From positions 1-44,279 of the IMG/VR virus record IMGVR_UViG_3300022693_000703: a stretch of DNA of 44,279 nt; one strand, 5' to 3'. This DNA is from a virus. Made by a program: the position numbers and the translations under genes. Below the pieces are notes generated by a model that was not told the origin of the DNA, searched no databases, and worked only from the letters and a program-made list of their open reading frames with translations. Shown here in pieces: positions 20,122-37,009 of the stretch; the first letter of the stretch is position 1, and each line of letters starts with the position of its first letter.

Positions 20122-21660
20122 ATGTCACTACAAATAGTTATTACAGATGCAGGAAAAGCAGAAATAATTAACGCGGAAAATACTGGAACTGCGCCTGTCA
20201 CTATATCGGAAATAGGGTTTGGATCAGGTCAGTATACAGCTAGCACATCACAAACAGCTCTAGTTTCTGAAATTAAAAGATTAAACACTATATCAGGTGT
20301 TGTGGTTGGTGATGATACTATTCACGTAACAGGTAGAGATGAAAGCGCTGATAGTTACGATGTTTTTGAAATAGGCTTATTTCTTGAAAGTGGTACATTG
20401 TTTGCAGTTTACTCGCAAAACACACCTATCTTAAATAAAAGCGCTCAATCGATAGCGCTTATTGCAATTGATATTGCAATTCAATCTCTAAACCCTGCAA
20501 GTGTGACTTTTGGTGATGCTAACTTTACCAACCCGCCAGCCACAACTGAAAATGAAGGTGTGGTTAAGTTGGCTACTAATGCTGAAGTTCAAGCTGGCAC
20601 TGACACGCAAAAAGCAGTGACACCAGGATCAATTTCAAGTAGAACAGCCACAACCACAAGAACGGGGCTAGTTGAGCTGGCTACTAATGCTGAAGCGGCG
20701 GATGGCACAGATTCAATTCGTGCAGTTACCCCCGCCGGCGTTAAAGCTGCCATTGATAATAGTGCACCACCTGACGCAACTACAACGCAAAAAGGTATTA
20801 TAGAGCTTGCCACTAATGCTGAAACTCAATCTGGTAATGATTCTTCACGCGCAGTCACTCCTGCAGGCTTGGCAAGCTTGACCGCAACGGAAAGTAGAAG
20901 GGGGATCGTAGAACTTGCGAATGAATCTGAAACCCAAGCTGGTAATGATTCTTCACGCGCAGTCACTCCTGCAGGCTTGGCAAGCTTGACCGCAACGGAA
21001 AGTAGAAGGGGGATCGTAGAACTTGCGAATGAATCTGAAACCCAAGCTGGTAATGATTCATCAAAAGCAGTTACCCCTGCAGGATTAAACAGTAGATTAG
21101 CTACTAGAACAACAGCCGGACTTGTTGAATTAGCCACGAATCCCGAAACTCAGTCTGGCATTGATGCTGCACGCGCAGTAACACCGGCAGGCTTAAAATC
21201 ATGGTCTGATGATCGTGGCGTGTACGGCGAAGATAACAATGAAATGATTGGATCAGTCGCTTATTTCATTACTACCGTAGCACCTGACGGATGGATTAAG
21301 GCCAATGGCGCAGCGGTAAGTCGAACCACTTACGCAAAACTATTTGCTAAGGTTGGCACGTTTTGGGGGAACGGTAACGGTTCAACCACATTCAATGTAC
21401 CAGATTTGCGCGGTGAGTTTATTCGTTGTTGGGATGATGGGCGCGGTGTTGATAGTGGGCGTTCTTTTGGTACTTTTCAGGCTGATGAATTCAAAGAGCA
21501 CAGACATTCACTGCCTTCACGGGATAACGCTGGCAATGGAAACAGCTATATTGAAGATGCTGATCCAGGCGGCATTGTAAGATCAGCTTACACAGGCTTA
21601 GAAGGCGGCAGTGAAACGCGCCCACGTAACGTAGCACTTGTGGCCTACATCAAATATTAA
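20122..21660 (+). CDS. Tail fibre protein with repeats and collar domain
   Basis: The 512-residue fibre begins with the tail-collar fibre N-terminal domain (SLQIVITDAGKAEIINAENT, GTAPVTISEIGFGSGQYT) that anchors to the baseplate. Residues ~145-355 are repeats of about 36 residues around GLVELATNAE and AVTPAGL. The C-terminus is a phage tail collar domain: GSVAYFITTVAPDGWIKANG, NGSTTFNVPDLRGEFIRCWD and FKEHRHSLPS. It is a likely host-range determinant. Two repeats are identical at the DNA level. Confidence 0.9.
   Translation: MSLQIVITDAGKAEIINAENTGTAPVTISEIGFGSGQYTASTSQTALVSEIKRLNTISGVVVGDDTIHVTGRDESADSYDVFEIGLFLESGTLFAVYSQNTPILNKSAQSIALIAIDIAIQSLNPASVTFGDANFTNPPATTENEGVVKLATNAEVQAGTDTQKAVTPGSISSRTATTTRTGLVELATNAEAADGTDSIRAVTPAGVKAAIDNSAPPDATTTQKGIIELATNAETQSGNDSSRAVTPAGLASLTATESRRGIVELANESETQAGNDSSRAVTPAGLASLTATESRRGIVELANESETQAGNDSSKAVTPAGLNSRLATRTTAGLVELATNPETQSGIDAARAVTPAGLKSWSDDRGVYGEDNNEMIGSVAYFITTVAPDGWIKANGAAVSRTTYAKLFAKVGTFWGNGNGSTTFNVPDLRGEFIRCWDDGRGVDSGRSFGTFQADEFKEHRHSLPSRDNAGNGNSYIEDADPGGIVRSAYTGLEGGSETRPRNVALVAYIKY
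20833..21059 (+). repeat. Tandem 108-bp direct repeat inside the tail fibre gene
   Basis: Two copies (20833-20940 and 20941-21048) read identically base for base, and a third begins at 21049 before diverging after 11 bases. Each unit encodes 36 residues containing SSRAVTPAGLASLTATESRR. Because neighbouring repeats of the same fibre are clearly diverged, these two arose recently by duplication or slippage and keep the reading frame. Confidence 0.95.
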
Positions 21661-21671
21661 AGGGGAATCAC

Positions 21672-22154
21672 ATGCAGATTTATCACTATCACCCTGTTAC
21701 AAATGAATACCTTGGAACTGGCGTTGCCGATCCTGATCCGCTTGATAAAGATAACTGGCTTGTACCGGCACACGCTACTGAAAAAGAGCCACCTACATTA
21801 AGCGATAACCAAGCCGCGGTTTTTAATGGTTCTGATTGGGAAGTAAAGCCCGATTATCGCGGCCAGCCATATTGGCTAGATCACGAATCAAAATGGGCAA
21901 CGTCTACCATAGGCGAAGAACCGCCAGAAGGGGCCACGCTTGAACAGCCAAGCGCACCAGAACCAACGATGGAAGAAAAAACCGCTTCAATAGACGAAAT
22001 TAGACAAACTTTGTACAGAAAACAGGTTGACCCTCTTATCAATGAGTCTAATATAAAGCGTGCAATGGGTGAGAATGAACAGGCTGATATGCTAATGCAG
22101 CAAGCCATTGAAAAACGGCTAAGCATTCAAGCTGAAAACCCTTGGCCTGAATAA
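21672..22154 (+). CDS. Tail fibre assembly-like protein
   Basis: This 160-residue protein starts MQIYHYHPVTNEYLGTGVAD, followed by LVPAHATEKEPPTLSDNQAAVFNGSDWEV and PYWLDHESKW, features common in proteins next to tail fibres that aid folding or cap the fibre. The C-terminal ~60 residues form a charged helix (EEKTASIDEIRQTLYRKQVDPL). It follows the fibre by 11 bp with a GGGGAA ribosome site. Confidence 0.75.
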   Translation: MQIYHYHPVTNEYLGTGVADPDPLDKDNWLVPAHATEKEPPTLSDNQAAVFNGSDWEVKPDYRGQPYWLDHESKWATSTIGEEPPEGATLEQPSAPEPTMEEKTASIDEIRQTLYRKQVDPLINESNIKRAMGENEQADMLMQQAIEKRLSIQAENPWPE

Positions 22155-22169: not shown

Positions 22170-22490
22170 ATGTTGAATATTGAATTGCTGCACTTGCTTT
22201 GGGTAGTCGCGGTGTTTGTTGCAAACATGCAGCGCGAGAAAAACAAAGAATTGAGCAACGAAAATAAATCTTTGAAGGATCGGTTAGGTAAAGTTGAAAC
22301 CGCATTAAGTAAATGCGTTGACGATCAGCATGTTCGAACGTTAATAGAGAAGTCTAACGCGCCCATGCGAGGCGACTTAAAGGAAGTCGCAGCAAATATC
22401 AATAATTCAATGCGAGAATTTGACGAAAAAATTCACGGCCTTGCGTTGGATATTGCAAGAGGCTCGAAAGGGGCGAGACATAATGACTGA
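22170..22490 (+). CDS. Small protein with N-terminal membrane segment and coiled coil
   Basis: The start is the ATG at 22170, five bases after AAGGAGG; the product is 106 residues. Residues 3-19 are hydrophobic (IELLHLLWVVAVFVANM), followed by a long charged coiled coil (REKNKELSNENKSLKDRLGK) to the end. This layout is like DUF2730-type phage proteins and also resembles inner-membrane spanins. It is the first gene of the lysis-side cassette and overlaps the response regulator by 8 bp. Function is not known; a lysis accessory role is inferred from position. Confidence 0.65.
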   Translation: MLNIELLHLLWVVAVFVANMQREKNKELSNENKSLKDRLGKVETALSKCVDDQHVRTLIEKSNAPMRGDLKEVAANINNSMREFDEKIHGLALDIARGSKGARHND

Positions 22491-22938
22491 AACTGTAATG
22501 ATTGTTGATGACAATAACCTTGAGCGCGAGTTCTTCACCGAAGCGTTTAAGCAACATGGTATTAAAACGGTAGCAACGGGCGATCCCACAAAAGCTTTGT
22601 TGCTTGCCGTTGAAGCCCAGCCTGATTTTATTATTCTTGACTTATACATGCCTGGCATTGATGGGCTTGAAGTTTGCCGATTGATTAAAAGTGACGAGCG
22701 AACGCGCAATATACCCGTGCTTTTCGTTTCATCCAGTAGCGATGTTAACGACATACGAGAAGGCTTTCACCTTGGTTGCTTAGACTACATTAACAAGCCA
22801 GTTGATATTTATAGCTTGGTAGATTTGATTGGAAGGCACCGCATTGTTCAAAAGCTTCAAGAATCTTATAGACCGTTGCGCGAATGCCTTGATAATTTCG
22901 TTAAAAAATATCACACGGAGGATGATCAAGTTGTCTAA
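22483..22938 (+). CDS. CheY-like response regulator receiver protein
   Basis: I use the ATG at 22483, behind GGGGCGAG. The 151-residue protein is a single receiver domain with all key residues: acidic pair Asp9-Asp10 (MIVDDN), phosphoacceptor Asp53 (FIILDLYMPGIDG), Ser83 at the end of beta-4 (VLFVSSSS) and Lys105 in DYINKPVD. About 30 residues follow (SYRPLRECLDNFVKKYH) with no DNA-binding or enzymatic output domain. Such proteins accept phosphate from a histidine kinase and act by protein contact. No kinase is present in the window, so a host kinase would be needed. It overlaps neighbours on both sides, so it is truly part of the late operon. Confidence 0.9.
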   Translation: MTETVMIVDDNNLEREFFTEAFKQHGIKTVATGDPTKALLLAVEAQPDFIILDLYMPGIDGLEVCRLIKSDERTRNIPVLFVSSSSDVNDIREGFHLGCLDYINKPVDIYSLVDLIGRHRIVQKLQESYRPLRECLDNFVKKYHTEDDQVV

Positions 22939-23644
22939 ATTTAAACTATTTTTAGATGCTGGGCATGGCGGCCATGATTCAGGTGCAGTAGGCCATGGCT
23001 TAAAGGAAAAGGATATTGTTCTTGAAGTTTGCCAGCGCGTTGATAACTACCTAGCTAAACACTATCCCGATATCGAATGTTTATTGTCGCGAAACGATGA
23101 CACATTTGTTGAGTTGCGTGATCGTACCAGTAAAGCGAACCGCTTAAAATCTGATTGCCTTGTATCAGTTCACGTTAATAGCGCCAGCGCAACTAGCGCA
23201 AACGGCTTTGAGTCATTCATTTACACCACCGATGATGAAACCACTAAATCATACGCGTTACAGCAAAAGTTACACAAAAAGCTCGCAGGCCTTTGGACGG
23301 GTAAAGGCAGGCGTGATCGTGGGCAGAAGAAAGCCAACTTTCACATGGTGCGAGAATTTAAAGGCGCTTCCGTTCTTGTTGAGCTTGGTTTTATTGTTAA
23401 CGATAAGGACGCAGCCTTGCTTAAATCTGACGCATTTTTGCAACAGAACGCTGAAGAAATTGCAGATGCCGTTGCAGAATACGCAGGTGTAAAAAAACTT
23501 GTAAAACAATCTGATGCTATGTATCGCGTTATTGTAGATGGTAAGCAGCAAGGCGCATACGCCGTAACTGAAAACGTAGTAAACGCATTTGAAAAAGCGG
23601 TTCAGTCTGGTGCAAGTAAGATTGAAGCGGAAATGGTTAAATAA
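22931..23644 (+). CDS. N-acetylmuramoyl-L-alanine amidase (endolysin)
   Basis: Amidase_3-type endolysin that cleaves the bond between muramic acid and the stem peptide. Zinc ligands and catalysts are visible: His in FLDAGHGGHDSG, Glu in DIVLEV, His in VSVHVNSASA and Glu in VLVELGFI. I chose the TTG at 22931, nine bases after GGAGG at 22917-22921; the ATG at 22922 touches that ribosome site. This gives 237 residues. A C-terminal YRVIVDGKQQGAYAV module of about 40 residues resembles repeats in other endolysins and may bind cell wall. No signal peptide is seen, so release depends on the holin. Confidence 0.9.
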   Translation: MSKFKLFLDAGHGGHDSGAVGHGLKEKDIVLEVCQRVDNYLAKHYPDIECLLSRNDDTFVELRDRTSKANRLKSDCLVSVHVNSASATSANGFESFIYTTDDETTKSYALQQKLHKKLAGLWTGKGRRDRGQKKANFHMVREFKGASVLVELGFIVNDKDAALLKSDAFLQQNAEEIADAVAEYAGVKKLVKQSDAMYRVIVDGKQQGAYAVTENVVNAFEKAVQSGASKIEAEMVK

Positions 23645-25110
23645 TGGCGTTTCTACTGCGGTTTGATGGGGCTGACGATAACGTTGATTTGGCCTCGCCT
23701 ATATCTGCAACAGGAGATGGTGTACTAGCTGAAATTGATTTCGAGTACCAAGGTGCTTTAAATGATGTTATCTGCGGCGGCACGTCTTTCAGTGATTTTT
23801 GGCGCATAAATGGCGATACTCAATTCAGAATATCAATCGCTGGAGCGGTTACCAATGTAAACATAAACACGCCACTTGTCATCGGCACGAGGTACGTATT
23901 AAGGCTAGTTCGTACAGGCTCAAGCGTTATCGTAGAGGACGAGAACGGAGTAGCACTAACTCCTGCGACCAACTTTAACGCTAATCCATTTATAGTCGAT
24001 AAAATAGGCTCGTTTCATAACGGCACATCTGACCTTGCAATGGACTTGTATGGGTTCAAAGCAAACAATGGAGCTAGCAACTACGACCCAACCGCTTCTT
24101 TTGACCAGGGTGAATTGGTTGATACCGTAGCTGGCAACAATGGATCGCCAATAAATTTCCCTACTAATTTTAATGATGCGTTGATATTCTATGACGATGG
24201 TGGCGGTACAGTAGAACAACAAGTAACAGCCAATGAATCAAAGCAGGCCGCGCAATCAGAAACACAAAGTGTAACTTTTACGCAGCAAGCAGGTTCTAAT
24301 GAATCTCAGCAAGTTAGCGAAGCTGATGAGAAAAGCGCTTCTACTACACAAGTTGCATCTTCTAATCAATCGCAGCAGTTAAGCCAATCTCAGCAGCAAG
24401 CCGCTTCTATTACACAGTTATTATCAATTTTAGACGATGAGCAGATAAGCGAATCAACGCAACAAACTGTTCAATTAGCACAGCAAATTCAGCACAATGA
24501 AGCGCAGCAAAATACTAACGCTGATACACAGGCTGTTACACTTTCTCAAGCATTGCAGCCAATTGAAGTAAAGCAGAAAGCGCAGGCTGAACAGCAAACA
24601 GTGCAAGACGGTGGTGGTATAACTGCCAATGATGCGCAGCAGCAAAGCGAATCTGAGCAGCAATCTATTACAGCTAATCAATCTGTAAATTCATTTGAAG
24701 AAAATCAAAACGTTGAAAGCGTACAAGCCACTGTTACACTTGCTCAGCAAATTAATGCTGTTGAAGTTGAGCAGTTCGCACAAGCGGAGCAATCCGTTAT
24801 TACTGATGGTAATGGAATTGTAGCGGTACAGGTTGAGCAAAAAGCCCAAGCGCAAGTTTCAGAAGTTAAGCAAACACAGCAAGTTTCACCGTTTAATGTT
24901 GAGCAGCATTTAGAATCTGAAAAAGCATTACCAGCAATAATTCAACGTTTACTGGCTGTAGATGCTGAGCAAATAACCCAAGCACCGACATTGCAAGTCA
25001 GTGATTCCGATATTATTATTGATCCACAAAAAATAAGTGTTGAGCGTGTAACGCCCACATTTACTATTCAACTGGTCGAAAGGCCAAAATACACAATAGT
25101 GAGGTTATAA
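23644..25110 (+). CDS. LamG-like protein with 22-residue Gln-rich repeats
   Basis: The 488-residue product has a beta-rich N-terminal domain (1-185) of concanavalin/LamG look (LLRFDGADDNVDLASPI, IDFEYQGALND, RYVLRLVRTGSSVIVEDENG, AMDLYGFKANNG). Residues 197 to about 454 are an exact 22-residue repeat, and the last 35 residues are a separate Val/Thr-rich end (VERVTPTFTIQLVERP). It sits in the late operon between amidase and holin, so it may be a virion appendage or wall-binding protein. I do not recognise a defined function. Confidence 0.7.
   Translation: MAFLLRFDGADDNVDLASPISATGDGVLAEIDFEYQGALNDVICGGTSFSDFWRINGDTQFRISIAGAVTNVNINTPLVIGTRYVLRLVRTGSSVIVEDENGVALTPATNFNANPFIVDKIGSFHNGTSDLAMDLYGFKANNGASNYDPTASFDQGELVDTVAGNNGSPINFPTNFNDALIFYDDGGGTVEQQVTANESKQAAQSETQSVTFTQQAGSNESQQVSEADEKSASTTQVASSNQSQQLSQSQQQAASITQLLSILDDEQISESTQQTVQLAQQIQHNEAQQNTNADTQAVTLSQALQPIEVKQKAQAEQQTVQDGGGITANDAQQQSESEQQSITANQSVNSFEENQNVESVQATVTLAQQINAVEVEQFAQAEQSVITDGNGIVAVQVEQKAQAQVSEVKQTQQVSPFNVEQHLESEKALPAIIQRLLAVDAEQITQAPTLQVSDSDIIIDPQKISVERVTPTFTIQLVERPKYTIVRL
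24232..25005 (+). repeat. 22-residue (66-bp) protein repeat array, 11 full copies plus a partial
   Basis: Counting residues by hand, eleven successive units are each exactly 22 long with no gap. Gln at unit position 5 is invariant (for example NESKQ, NESQQ, DDEQ, NEAQQ, EVKQ, VEVEQ), with common A/S/E near 8-9 and V or I near 14. The DNA copies are diverged, so selection on the protein period is implied. A strict 22-residue period suggests a solenoid or stalk. Confidence 0.9.
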
Positions 25111-25878: not shown

Positions 25879-26109
25879 ATGGAACAAAACATTGTTGAAT
25901 ACATCATGCTGGCTTTACAGTGGATCACTACCATTGTGGGTGCAGCGTCAATCATTGTAGCGGCGTTAATTAAGGTTGCTAAGCTTACACCTTCAAGCAA
26001 GGACGATGAATGGCTGTCAGGCGCTGAACGTTTTCTGGCAAGCATTATTGCATTGCTAGATAAGCTAGCCTTAAACCCTAACAAAGAACAAGCACGGCCA
26101 CCAAAATGA
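25879..26109 (+). CDS. Holin-like membrane protein
   Basis: A 76-residue protein with one clear membrane segment at about residues 9-35 (IMLALQWITTIVGAASIIVAALIKVAKL, hydrophobic core), a soluble middle, a second weaker amphipathic helix (FLASIIALLDKLAL) and a charged tail. Size, topology and position immediately before the spanin pair support a holin that forms lesions to release the amidase. GGGG ribosome site; overlaps the next gene by 4 bp. Confidence 0.7.
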   Translation: MEQNIVEYIMLALQWITTIVGAASIIVAALIKVAKLTPSSKDDEWLSGAERFLASIIALLDKLALNPNKEQARPPK

Positions 26110-26357
26110 AGCTTATAGAGCTTGTTCTTTCATTGCTTAATAGGTTGCTTGGCGCAATCGATAAGCAGCATAAGCGACAGGAGCAACAGCAGCATGAAGA
26201 AAGTGTTAATGATGTTCAGAAAAACCCTGTTAATTGGTTTGATGATCATTTTAACGGGTTGCGTGACAACGGAGTGTCCGACAATGCCAGCGAAACCAAC
26301 GAAGCCTACACTCGAAAGCATACAACAGACGAGCGAAGGCGGGATGATACTGAGTAA
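26106..26357 (+). CDS. Inner spanin-like protein (Rz-like)
   Basis: This 83-residue protein has an N-terminal amphipathic or weak membrane helix (LIELVLSLLNRLLGAI) and a charged coil (KQHKRQEQQQHEESVNDVQK), then NPVNWFDDHFNGL, a phrase often seen at the end of small Rz/LysB-like proteins. A lipoprotein gene is embedded in another frame within it, which is the diagnostic Rz/Rz1 arrangement. Spanins fuse inner and outer membranes in the final lysis step. The weak membrane segment makes this less certain than the partner. Confidence 0.6.
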   Translation: MKLIELVLSLLNRLLGAIDKQHKRQEQQQHEESVNDVQKNPVNWFDDHFNGLRDNGVSDNASETNEAYTRKHTTDERRRDDTE

Positions 26358-26418
26358 GGGTGATGCGCAAAAGCTAGGTATTTACATTCTTGAACTTGAG
26401 CGTGGTTACAACCTATGA
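26194..26418 (+). CDS. Outer spanin lipoprotein (Rz1-like), nested
   Basis: The ATG at 26194 follows AGGAGC and opens a 74-residue frame inside the preceding gene, in a different frame. It is a classic lipoprotein: MKKVLMMFRK, a hydrophobic core, and a lipobox LTGC with Cys23 as the lipidated residue. The mature part starts VTTECPTMPAKPTKPTL, with the Pro/Lys-rich look of Rz1 proteins. It would be anchored to the inner leaflet of the outer membrane and pair with the inner spanin. It overlaps the next gene by 4 bp. Confidence 0.85.
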   Translation: MKKVLMMFRKTLLIGLMIILTGCVTTECPTMPAKPTKPTLESIQQTSEGGMILSKGDAQKLGIYILELERGYNL

Positions 26419-27251: not shown

Positions 27252-27478
27252 GTTACACATGGGTTACACATAACCTGTTTTTATATCTATTAAAGCGCGT
27301 CATAGAGCGATTTTGTTTTGATTTTTGGCAGTAGGGCAGTATTGTAAAGCGTTTTTGTGCTACACTTATAAACAAGCGGTAAATACCGCCACTGGCGTAT
27401 TTTACGCCCTTTATGGTAGTATTTAATTAACCCTAATTGGGTACAAAAATGTAACGTATGGTTACACATGCGTTACAC
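27252..27478 (+). repeat. Pair of GTTACACATG(G/C)GTTACAC direct repeats upstream of integrase 1
   Basis: Two 18-bp copies differing by one base lie at 27252-27269 and 27461-27478, the second just before the integrase ribosome site. Each copy itself contains two GTTACAC units 11 bp apart. Paired short repeats spaced about one helical turn next to an integrase gene look like arm-type binding sites or direct operator sites. No core site can be named without the host junction. Confidence 0.6.
27342..27408 (+). promoter_or_regulatory. Integrase 1 promoter with two palindromic operators
   Basis: A possible promoter is TTGTAA (27342-27347) and TTATAA (27366-27371) with 18 bp between. Directly downstream are two palindromes: GCGGTAAATACCGC (27376-27389) and GGCGTATTTTACGCC (27394-27408). 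The latter recurs exactly upstream of the excisionase-like gene at 29447. A GGGTACA half-site of the early operator also lies at 27439-27445. A regulator binding these would control the integration and excision genes together. Confidence 0.6.
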
Positions 27479-27493
27479 GAAAGGGTGCTGTTT

Positions 27494-28555
27494 ATGAGCA
27501 AAGATATACCTTCTAAAAAGTATAAAGGTGTTTATTATCGAGACTTAAAAAGCGGTGATCGTTCTTACTTTATTATCACTCGCATAGCTGGCAAACAAAA
27601 ACGTATAAGCGTTGGTAAAAAATCAGAGGGTATCACAGAGGCTTTCTGTTACCAGCAAAAAGTCAAGATCATCAACGCTGAAAAGTTTGGTGAAGGCACG
27701 GCCGAAATACTGCAGCGCAAAAACAAAGAAGATCCCACATTCCGTGAACTGTTCGACTACTGGCTGAAGAACAGCGGCCACAAAGAAAACTCAAAGCGCG
27801 TAGCAAAATACCTAATTAATCAGGTGCCATTTGCTAACGAAAGAAAGATAACGCGAAACCACATAATTAAGTTCCAGCGCGAAATGCAAAAGGAACGCTC
27901 GAGCAATACCGTTGATCACAAAATCAATATGCTTTCATCGGTTTTTAACCTGGCAATTGCTGACGGTAAATATCGTTTTGAAAATCCGTGCGCTAACGTA
28001 CCTAGAACGAACGCAAATGATAAACGTGATAGATACCTCACCAAAGAAGAAGTACGCGCGTTGCTGGATGCTACGCGTGACAATGATCGGCTTTACATGT
28101 TTACTAAGTTGGCACTTTGCACAGGCGCCAGAATAGGAACCCTTATGAACATACGGGCCGAGCACATAAAAGGCGAAACCGTACAGCTTTACAACGTTAA
28201 AAAGGATCGTTATTACACTGGTTTTTTGAACGCAGAAACGCAGCAGCTTTTGAAAGGCCGTAAAGGTTTTGTATTAAGCTGGGATGATCCAGAACGTATG
28301 CCCAATAACAATCAATATCAGTGGCGCATGGCTAGAATATTCAACCGGCTATTCAATGAGGGTGTAACAGACCGCAGACAACGCGTAGTAATTCACACGT
28401 TACGCCACACAGTAGCCAGCCAGTTAGTACAGAGCGGTACACCATTACAGGTAGTTGCCAGAGTATTAGATCACGAGTCTATACGCAGTGCAGAACGTTA
28501 CGCGAAGCTAAACCAAGACAATGTTAAAACCGCGTTGAATAATATTTGGCAATAA
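27494..28555 (+). CDS. Tyrosine recombinase / integrase 1
   Basis: I choose the ATG at 27494, eight bases after AAGGG; the protein has 353 residues. It has an N-terminal arm-binding region (KYKGVYYRDLKSGDRSYFI), a core-binding helix bundle (FRELFDYWLKNSGHKENSKR) and a catalytic domain with Arg in CTGARIGTLMNI, HTLRHT (His-x-x-Arg), His in VLDHES and the nucleophile Tyr in ERYAKLN. All catalytic residues are intact. It would join phage and host DNA at att sites. A second, unrelated-looking integrase lies at 35.8 kb. Confidence 0.95.
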   Translation: MSKDIPSKKYKGVYYRDLKSGDRSYFIITRIAGKQKRISVGKKSEGITEAFCYQQKVKIINAEKFGEGTAEILQRKNKEDPTFRELFDYWLKNSGHKENSKRVAKYLINQVPFANERKITRNHIIKFQREMQKERSSNTVDHKINMLSSVFNLAIADGKYRFENPCANVPRTNANDKRDRYLTKEEVRALLDATRDNDRLYMFTKLALCTGARIGTLMNIRAEHIKGETVQLYNVKKDRYYTGFLNAETQQLLKGRKGFVLSWDDPERMPNNNQYQWRMARIFNRLFNEGVTDRRQRVVIHTLRHTVASQLVQSGTPLQVVARVLDHESIRSAERYAKLNQDNVKTALNNIWQ

Positions 28556-35288: not shown

Positions 35289-35835
35289 AGGTTTAACCGC
35301 TGAAGAAATCACCATTGAAAGCATTGCATCTAGCTTATCGAAAATTTGCCGTTTTAATGGGCATTGTAATCGATTTTATTCAGTAGCAGAGCATTGTTAT
35401 GTTTCAGCGCTGTGGGCAATGGAACGCTACAACGATCCAAGAGTTGCACTGGCCTGTTTGCTACATGATGCCGCAGAAGCATATCTTGGTGATATTGTTA
35501 CACCGCTAAAAGTAACGTTGCCGCAGATGAATGTGCTTGAAGGCAATATATTAAAAACCATTTCTAAGAAGTACAAAGTTGATATTGCTGTAAAGTGGAA
35601 TGATCTACTGCCAGAGATTAAAGAGATAGATAAATTGATACTGGCCGTTGAACGCAATTTGTTTATGCCATCTAACCCGCTATGGGCGATTGATATGCCG
35701 ATGATGCCACCAAAAGTAAGAAACCATTTCTTCATTGGTAGTAAGTTGATCGGTGAGGTGCAATGGCAAGAAGCAGAGCAGATGTTTATTGTCATGGCTT
35801 TGCGTCTACTAAAGGAGGTTGGCGAATTTGGGTAA
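35245..35835 (+). CDS. HD-domain phosphohydrolase (YfbR-like)
   Basis: This 196-residue enzyme has the HD metal-binding set: His in FNGHCNRFYSVAEHCYV, His-Asp in CLLHDAAEAYLGDIVTP and a later IKEIDKLILAVE. Relatives such as YfbR are 5'-deoxyribonucleotidases; phage versions may shift nucleotide pools or deplete a signal. GTG start. The gene precedes integrase 2 with 8-bp overlap, a peculiar pairing. Confidence 0.85.
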   Translation: MKTLINTGKLVDPIKGLTAEEITIESIASSLSKICRFNGHCNRFYSVAEHCYVSALWAMERYNDPRVALACLLHDAAEAYLGDIVTPLKVTLPQMNVLEGNILKTISKKYKVDIAVKWNDLLPEIKEIDKLILAVERNLFMPSNPLWAIDMPMMPPKVRNHFFIGSKLIGEVQWQEAEQMFIVMALRLLKEVGEFG

Positions 35836-37009
35836 AACCATTGTTGCCAAGATAAGTGATGCCGCTATTAAGCGGCATTCTTTGTCTGAGTGTTATCAAA
35901 TACGGGATGAAAAAACTAACGTCCGTCTACGCTTTCACCAGAACCGCAGAACCGCAAGCTGGTTCATAGTCGATTATTCTCGTGGTAAAACAATCTGGCG
36001 TAAGGTTGGGAACTGGCCTGCTATTAACAGCAAAGCATTGTTTGACCGCTTGCCACAGTTAAACGCACAAATGGCCGTTGATGCCAGTTCAGAAAAAATA
36101 CGCGTTGGACAAATGCACAACGTTGCACAGGTGTTAGCCTGGTATCTTAACCGCGTTAAAAATGACAGGAACTTGAGTGCTGGCCGTAAGTCATCGATAA
36201 AAACCGCAATACGCAAACACCTTGCACCGCGTTTGGGGCTTTTACGTTTGGATAAGCTAGAACGTAGCAATATTGATAAATCGCTAATGTGGCCATTACA
36301 GGCTGGTTATTCACTGGCAACGGTAAAGGCGATATTTTCAGTGTTAAAGGCAGCAATGCGGCAAGCTGAAAAGATTGGTGTTATCGAGCGCGATCCATGT
36401 GCAAGTATGAAATTCACTGATTTTATTAGCGCGGAGATATTGCCCAAAGGATCACGCTTAAGGCCGCATAATATAGAAGGCGTATTGAAGCAACTGCAGC
36501 AGGCACCACCACGAACGCAATTCATTGTCCTGATGATGCTAATGTACGGAACGCGGTTAAATGAAACAGTGCTTACCAGAAAGGCAGATATAAGTTTTGT
36601 TGATCAGTTGTGGTTTATACCTGAAAACCACACCAAAACGCGCCAAGCGCACGAGCTACCATTAACAATCACTTCTATAAAGGTGATTGAAAAATTCTTG
36701 CCGCACATCAAAGGCCGCTATGTTTTCCCTTCCAGGCAAGGTAAGCCGCTGTCAGGTTCTAGCGCATCAAAAGCGGTTCGTGAAGTGTCTGGCGGTGAAT
36801 GGTCAGCGCATGACTTGCGAAAAGTAGCCCGTACTATCTGGCAAGATCAAGGCGTTGATTACTACATTGGCGAACTGATGTTAAACCACAGCCTTTCAAA
36901 GTTAGATAAGGCTTACATTCACACTCACGCTAAATCACTAATCCAAAAAGAATTTGAAACCTATCACCAGTGGTTGCTAGAACGCGGCCTGAATTATTTC
37001 TGTAAATAA
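35828..37009 (+). CDS. Tyrosine recombinase / integrase 2
   Basis: I prefer the TTG at 35828, nine bases after AAGGAGG (35812-35818), over a TTG touching that site; the product is 393 residues. The N-terminus has a DUF4102-like arm-binding domain (VRLRFHQNRRTASWFIVDYS, KTIWRKVGNWPAI), then a core-binding domain, then catalytic Arg in MYGTRLNETVLTR, HDLRK (His-x-x-Arg), His in LNHSLSK and Tyr in KAYIHTH. Its type differs from integrase 1, and unlike most integrases it is the last gene of an early operon. Its final 22 bp fall in the 144-bp inverted repeat. Confidence 0.93.
   Translation: MGKTIVAKISDAAIKRHSLSECYQIRDEKTNVRLRFHQNRRTASWFIVDYSRGKTIWRKVGNWPAINSKALFDRLPQLNAQMAVDASSEKIRVGQMHNVAQVLAWYLNRVKNDRNLSAGRKSSIKTAIRKHLAPRLGLLRLDKLERSNIDKSLMWPLQAGYSLATVKAIFSVLKAAMRQAEKIGVIERDPCASMKFTDFISAEILPKGSRLRPHNIEGVLKQLQQAPPRTQFIVLMMLMYGTRLNETVLTRKADISFVDQLWFIPENHTKTRQAHELPLTITSIKVIEKFLPHIKGRYVFPSRQGKPLSGSSASKAVREVSGGEWSAHDLRKVARTIWQDQGVDYYIGELMLNHSLSKLDKAYIHTHAKSLIQKEFETYHQWLLERGLNYFCK

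Follow-up and report, generated by a model that had tools for sequence, protein, structure and literature searches.

Receivers that work post-translationally by contact with the cytoplasmic part of a membrane protein have been described in bacteria, where a single-domain response regulator acts on a membrane enzyme (EpsW-EpsZ; PMC12802240) and a CheY-like protein binds the cytoplasmic domain of a membrane subunit (PorX-PorL; PMC5005315). In phages, known lysis-timing systems use intrinsic holin clocks, antiholins and superinfection signals; in phage N4 lysis timing is set through a cytoplasmic region of the pinholin gp63, which is paired with the regulator gp62 (PMC12642591). Receivers in phages have been noticed one by one: gp48 of Alteromonas phage R8W was published as a 'PhoB' auxiliary metabolic gene (AMG) for adaptation to low phosphate (PMC8228385); Alteromonas phage V22 lists a histidine kinase/CheY-like gene (PMC7289586); and the R9Y and V19 copies are deposited as hypothetical proteins. 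Our literature searches found no description of a receiver in a phage lysis cassette, although these covered openly licensed papers only.

Here we analysed a 44,279 nt virus record (IMGVR_UViG_3300022693_000703; the window) in which a receiver gene lies among putative lysis genes, next to a small membrane protein. The same two-gene pair was found in several unrelated phages, which suggests, without proving it, that a signal from the host helps to decide when the cell is burst.

Results

A stand-alone receiver overlaps a membrane protein gene and an endolysin gene

The ORF at 22483–22938 (+) is predicted to encode a protein of 151 amino acids that matches Pfam Response_reg (PF00072) with an E-value of 2.8e-24 (85.9 bits against a cut-off of 30.2; positions 1–109 of the 111 in the profile; residues 5–115 of the protein) and no other family. 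The acidic pair (D9 and D10), the phosphoacceptor D53, S83 and K105 are all present. An AlphaFold2 model gave a confident receiver fold (mean pLDDT 86.6) followed by helices at residues 109–128 and 130–148; only the receiver matches a family and the remaining 35 residues are predicted to be helical, so there is no output domain. The initial annotation, which described a receiver with these five residues, no output domain and overlaps with both neighbouring genes, is therefore confirmed, with two corrections. By sequence the nearest solved receiver is PleD (1.7e-38), compared with 2e-26 for DivK and at best about 2e-25 for CheY, and the protein is therefore PleD/WspR-like rather than specifically CheY-like; and the receiver is followed by a helical extension of about 30 residues.

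The upstream ORF (22170–22490, +; ATG 22170, although TTG 22167 is also possible) overlaps the receiver gene by 8 nt and encodes a 106-amino-acid protein, here termed the partner. Hydropathy and sequence indicate one N-terminal transmembrane (TM) helix followed by a long helical, coiled-coil-like part, and AlphaFold2 predicted two long helices (residues 2–49 and 52–102; pLDDT 83.5). No Pfam, PHROG or NCBIfam family matched the partner above cut-off. As a small protein with one TM helix next to an endolysin gene it has the size, membrane segment and position expected of a holin or antiholin, although any effect on membrane permeabilization is inferred. It does not match the XhlA family phrog_937 at E 0.1, and a reading as an Rz spanin was rejected as phrog_739 was reached only at E 0.039 and spanin candidates lie elsewhere in the window.

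The downstream gene (22931–23644, +) encodes an N-acetylmuramoyl-L-alanine amidase endolysin (Pfam Amidase_3, 5.1e-46; PHROG endolysin, 4.2e-51) with 56% identity to the endolysin of Vibrio phage X29. The overlap with the receiver gene is 8 nt if translation starts at TTG 22931, which has a well-spaced GGAGG, or 17 nt if it starts at ATG 22922; both starts also exist in the closest relative of the window, viral contig L001, which has the same block of genes. An endolysin scan of viral contigs found only L001.

Genes from the tail fibre (20122) to the spanins (26418) run on one strand with gaps of at most about 20 nt. The tail fibre and its assembly protein lie at 20122–22154; the tail fibre (20122–21660) has internal near-identical repeats (ETQSGNDSSRAVTPAGLASLTATESRRGIVELANES) that differ in number from L001. 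Between the amidase and the holin candidate lie a 488-amino-acid protein (23644–25110) with a long glutamine/serine-rich repeat region (QQxxQSEQQ-like units) and two further small genes. The holin candidate (25879–26109, +; 76 amino acids, TM) is assigned by position and synteny only, as it matches phrog_9685, of unknown function, and has 59% identity to the X29 protein at the same place. The inner-membrane spanin (Rz) candidate (26106–26357, +; phrog_9219, function unknown) is based on its position overlapping an Rz1 and an X29 homologue at E 1e-8; the outer-membrane spanin (Rz1) lipoprotein has its true start inside the ORF at 26122–26418 (+), matches the Rz-like spanin family phrog_8971 (2.8e-21) and has a lipobox-like LTGC in its translation. 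The record also carries capsid and contractile-tail genes and two tyrosine integrases (27458–28555 and 35819–37009; phrog_1 at 1.9e-52 and 1.5e-37), and X29 likewise carries two annotated integrases. By TerL the nearest phages are Vibrio phages such as XM1 and X29 (57–58%); a terminase search found only 32–37% relatives, in one genome.

The receiver and its partner recur in seven phage groups

Related receivers in cultured Alteromonas phages lie in quite different genomes but in the same setting. In podoviruses R8W and H4/4 the order is holin, coiled-coil protein, receiver, unknown TM protein and terminase; the TM protein of R8W (gp49; L003:6453–6845) is conserved, belongs to phrog_2524, of unknown function, overlaps the receiver gene and may be a further lysis gene. 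In siphoviruses R9Y1-3 and uncultured relatives the order is coiled-coil protein, receiver and GH108 lysozyme; in PB15 it is XhlA-like protein (phrog_937, 1.8e-16), receiver, M15 endolysin and 3-TM holin; and its sister phage XX1924 has the same with DUF5675 in place of M15. That DUF5675 proteins (L104:6027–6422, −; L103:2438–2836, +) sit where an endolysin would be expected suggests that DUF5675 is a lysis enzyme. More distant receivers show the same order in the N4-sized podoviruses V19 and R22Y, in uncultured phages L092 and L102 (followed by an Amidase_2 endolysin) and in uncultured L098 (followed by terminase genes). With the window and L001 this gives seven groups, comprising myo-, podo- and siphoviruses, N4-sized podoviruses and uncultured phages, with unrelated flanking genes. 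As the groups were found by similarity to each other, this count does not cover stand-alone receivers elsewhere in phages.

In each group the upstream gene encodes a protein of about 80–120 amino acids with a single TM helix and otherwise charged, helical-looking sequence (14 of 14 measured; R22Y has a V19-like partner), and the two genes overlap by 4 to 23 nt. By comparison, only 7 of 233 genes in four such genomes have a small one-TM gene just upstream, counting the receivers themselves. By flanking charges the long part of the partner is cytosolic whether the TM is N-terminal (most) or C-terminal (PB15 and XX1924), although these charges are weak for the window partner and the rule can mislead for Rz-like proteins. 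A recognized lysis gene lies within two genes of the receiver in five of the seven groups (Amidase_3, GH108, M15 plus 3-TM holin, Amidase_2 and a holin PHROG); L098 has none, and V19 and R22Y have only a convergent block with DUF5675 and an unknown TM protein, which are lysis genes only by association.

Several records were set aside. IMG/VR contigs L093–L097 have receivers without the pair and look, by eye, like bacterial pieces; and several deposited 'phage' records (such as OQ572403, OQ572412 and MW462191) hold full bacterial two-component genes and look like host DNA, and receiver counts in phage databases are inflated by them; the three similar records that were inspected (Pseudomonas Y1 and Y11, MW462191) look like bacterial DNA. 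Hits in 'Listeria', 'Staphylococcus', 'Enterococcus' and fecal phage records were left out, and full-length regulators with output domains in Stenotrophomonas phage Bhz63 and Pseudomonas phage Komp_PAO1_1 were regarded as another kind. PADLOC matches of the receiver were only to receiver parts of larger proteins, and identity as a known defence gene was therefore rejected. Among 397 genomes of the Alteromonas family, searched for prophages, no receiver reached E 1e-32 with a receiver profile and no endolysin reached 1e-45; both results say little, as no positive control gave a signal and only the nine best candidates per genome were scored in the first.

Receivers have been recruited more than once and the pair is under purifying selection

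The R8W partner matches six of 50,697 phage records, all directly upstream of a receiver, and reaches R9Y at E 5e-4; three viral contigs behave likewise. This version of the pair is therefore shared between a T7-like podovirus and a siphovirus. The receiver tree joins the window, L001, R8W, H4/4 and R9Y types (support 99/92) but keeps PB15/XX1924, V19/R22Y, L102 and L098 apart; well-supported branches force at least two changes and bootstraps give four to five recruitments, although with few columns and long branches this is a rough estimate. Partners of different groups otherwise have mostly no detectable homology: profile comparisons, which used very few sequences, gave nothing beyond a weak TM-region match to L098, and a joint partner alignment is not meaningful across groups. 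This fits repeated assembly or fast evolution of the coil.

Comparison of the window with L001 gave similar dS values for receiver and partner (1.78 and 1.54), well above those of the amidase (0.50) and the tail-fibre assembly gene (0.70), and R9Y2 behaves the same way in comparison with L090 (receiver 2.4, partner saturated, lysozyme 0.54). This fits exchange of the pair as a unit. With dN 0.14 for the receiver and dN/dS near 0.08, both genes are maintained by purifying selection. X29 has homologues of the tail-fibre assembly protein, amidase, holin candidate and spanins in the same order, with a different small TM protein, no receiver, and nothing in place of the genes between amidase and holin candidate; the pair is thus an accessory to a complete lysis cassette.

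Given these findings we consider it very unlikely that the receivers are chance cargo, picked up from hosts as morons that happen to lie beside small membrane genes at the permissive end of late operons. Receivers are common in hosts (about 40 matches per Alteromonas genome) and most partners are not detectably homologous between groups, but purifying selection, pairing in seven of seven groups against a 3% background, overlapping frames throughout and transfer of the R8W/R9Y version as a pair all argue against it.

Phosphodonor and catalytic residues

Twelve of 12 records carrying the pair that were tested hold exactly one receiver and no histidine-kinase ATPase (HATPase_c) domain, so that any phosphoryl group must come from the host or from a small donor such as acetyl-phosphate. 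The full catalytic set is intact in 13 of 15 receivers. In the two Alteromonas phages V19 and R22Y the phosphoacceptor, Ser/Thr and Lys positions read P/T, V and I/L respectively; these phages keep the pair without the chemistry and phosphorylation cannot be essential to every version.

The best matches in two Alteromonas genomes are receivers of REC-GGDEF/EAL and REC-HD-GYP proteins, with domains read from the sequence. This similarity, that to PleD and the intact residues would be consistent with a decoy that titrates phosphoryl groups or kinases of host PleD/WspR/RpfG-type systems late in infection, changing c-di-GMP, surface or motility states, with the lysis-region position giving only late expression and the partner tethering the receiver near membrane kinases. 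We regard this as unlikely, as phospho-dead receivers are kept with their partner, and neither repeated placement among lysis genes nor constant pairing with a TM protein is needed for a decoy.

A transcriptional role, as published for the R8W homologue, is highly improbable. NCBIfam PhoB is the top family by E-value, but only over the receiver half and at 80 bits against a cut-off of 296, and there is no DNA-binding domain in these proteins of 151–153 amino acids; the C-terminal winged-helix domain of PhoB is absent, and an identity as PhoB is thus refuted by domain content.

Discussion

The interpretation offered in the initial annotation is partly supported. It proposed that the phage could sense or hijack a host two-component pathway to time lysis or alter motility, or that the receiver may be packaged or act with the membrane coiled-coil protein. 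A stand-alone receiver inside a lysis block, most likely acting with that protein, is supported by a pairing that recurs in every related phage found, and a host phosphodonor is supported by the absence of a HATPase_c domain in the 12 records. Motility or CheY mimicry as the main role is not supported, since the sequence is PleD/WspR-like and the context is lysis; and packaging in the virion has no evidence.

Our preferred explanation, held with no more than moderate confidence, is that the receiver and the small membrane protein form an accessory lysis-control module that has been inserted repeatedly into otherwise complete phage lysis cassettes. Sequence analysis establishes that the pair recurs, overlapping and in the same order, in seven phage groups; that it is under purifying selection; that the records tested lack a kinase domain of their own; and that the core lysis genes exist without it in a syntenic relative. 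The remainder is inferred from sequence alone: that the partner sits in the inner membrane with its coiled coil in the cytoplasm; that the receiver docks on that coil; and that phosphorylation of D53 by host histidine kinases or acetyl-phosphate changes the docking and so advances or delays membrane triggering, either because the partner is itself a small holin or antiholin or because it acts on the holin. In this view lysis timing would follow the host's signalling or metabolic state, and in V19 and R22Y the switch would have become constitutive.

Small membrane proteins next to lysis genes often serve exclusion or lysis inhibition, as with the N4 pair gp62/gp63 (PMC12642591). It is conceivable, although unlikely, that the membrane protein detects membrane or superinfection stress and that the receiver is only a folded binding platform, not a phospho-switch. 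The phospho-dead receivers are consistent with this, but 13 of 15 receivers keep the full catalytic set, which a mere scaffold would not need.

The broadest form of our reading, which remains tentative, is that phages have repeatedly wired host two-component signalling into their lysis machinery, such that the moment of lysis is set post-translationally by host signalling or energy state. A recurring receiver and coiled-coil pair in lysis cassettes would be a direct link from host signal transduction to lysis; it would explain an unexplained gene in several cultured phages (R8W, H4/4, R9Y1-3, PB15, XX1924, V19 and R22Y), in which the idea is testable and the phospho-dead members offer a natural comparison; and it would correct the published reading of PhoB and low-phosphate adaptation. 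The components are of known kinds, whereas their combination and recurrence are new as far as tested here.

By comparison with described systems, EpsW-EpsZ and PorX-PorL share a receiver that works by contact with the cytoplasmic part of a membrane protein (for the phage pair, inferred), but are chromosomal with known upstream signalling, whereas here a phage gene has no cognate kinase detected in the phage and its partner is a tiny one-TM protein among lysis genes. The N4 system shares a small membrane protein with a cytoplasmic helical region through which lysis timing is set (for the pair described here, inferred), paired with a second regulator, but has no response-regulator receiver ('Receiver domain' is only a label for a stretch of gp63) and its second protein is a 2-TM protein. 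The XhlA/hemolysin-type lysis accessory proteins (phrog_937) are matched by the PB15 partner, with a coiled coil plus one C-terminal TM next to endolysin and holin, but the window partner has its TM at the N-terminus and does not match that family. PleD is the best sequence match in the PDB and WspR (PA3702) a structural match over nearly the full length, receiver plus stalk, but the phage protein has no GGDEF output domain. Finally, R8W gp48 is a homologous receiver with about 45% identity; it was published as a DNA-binding regulator for low phosphate (PMC8228385) and is read here as a stand-alone receiver in a holin-partner-receiver operon.
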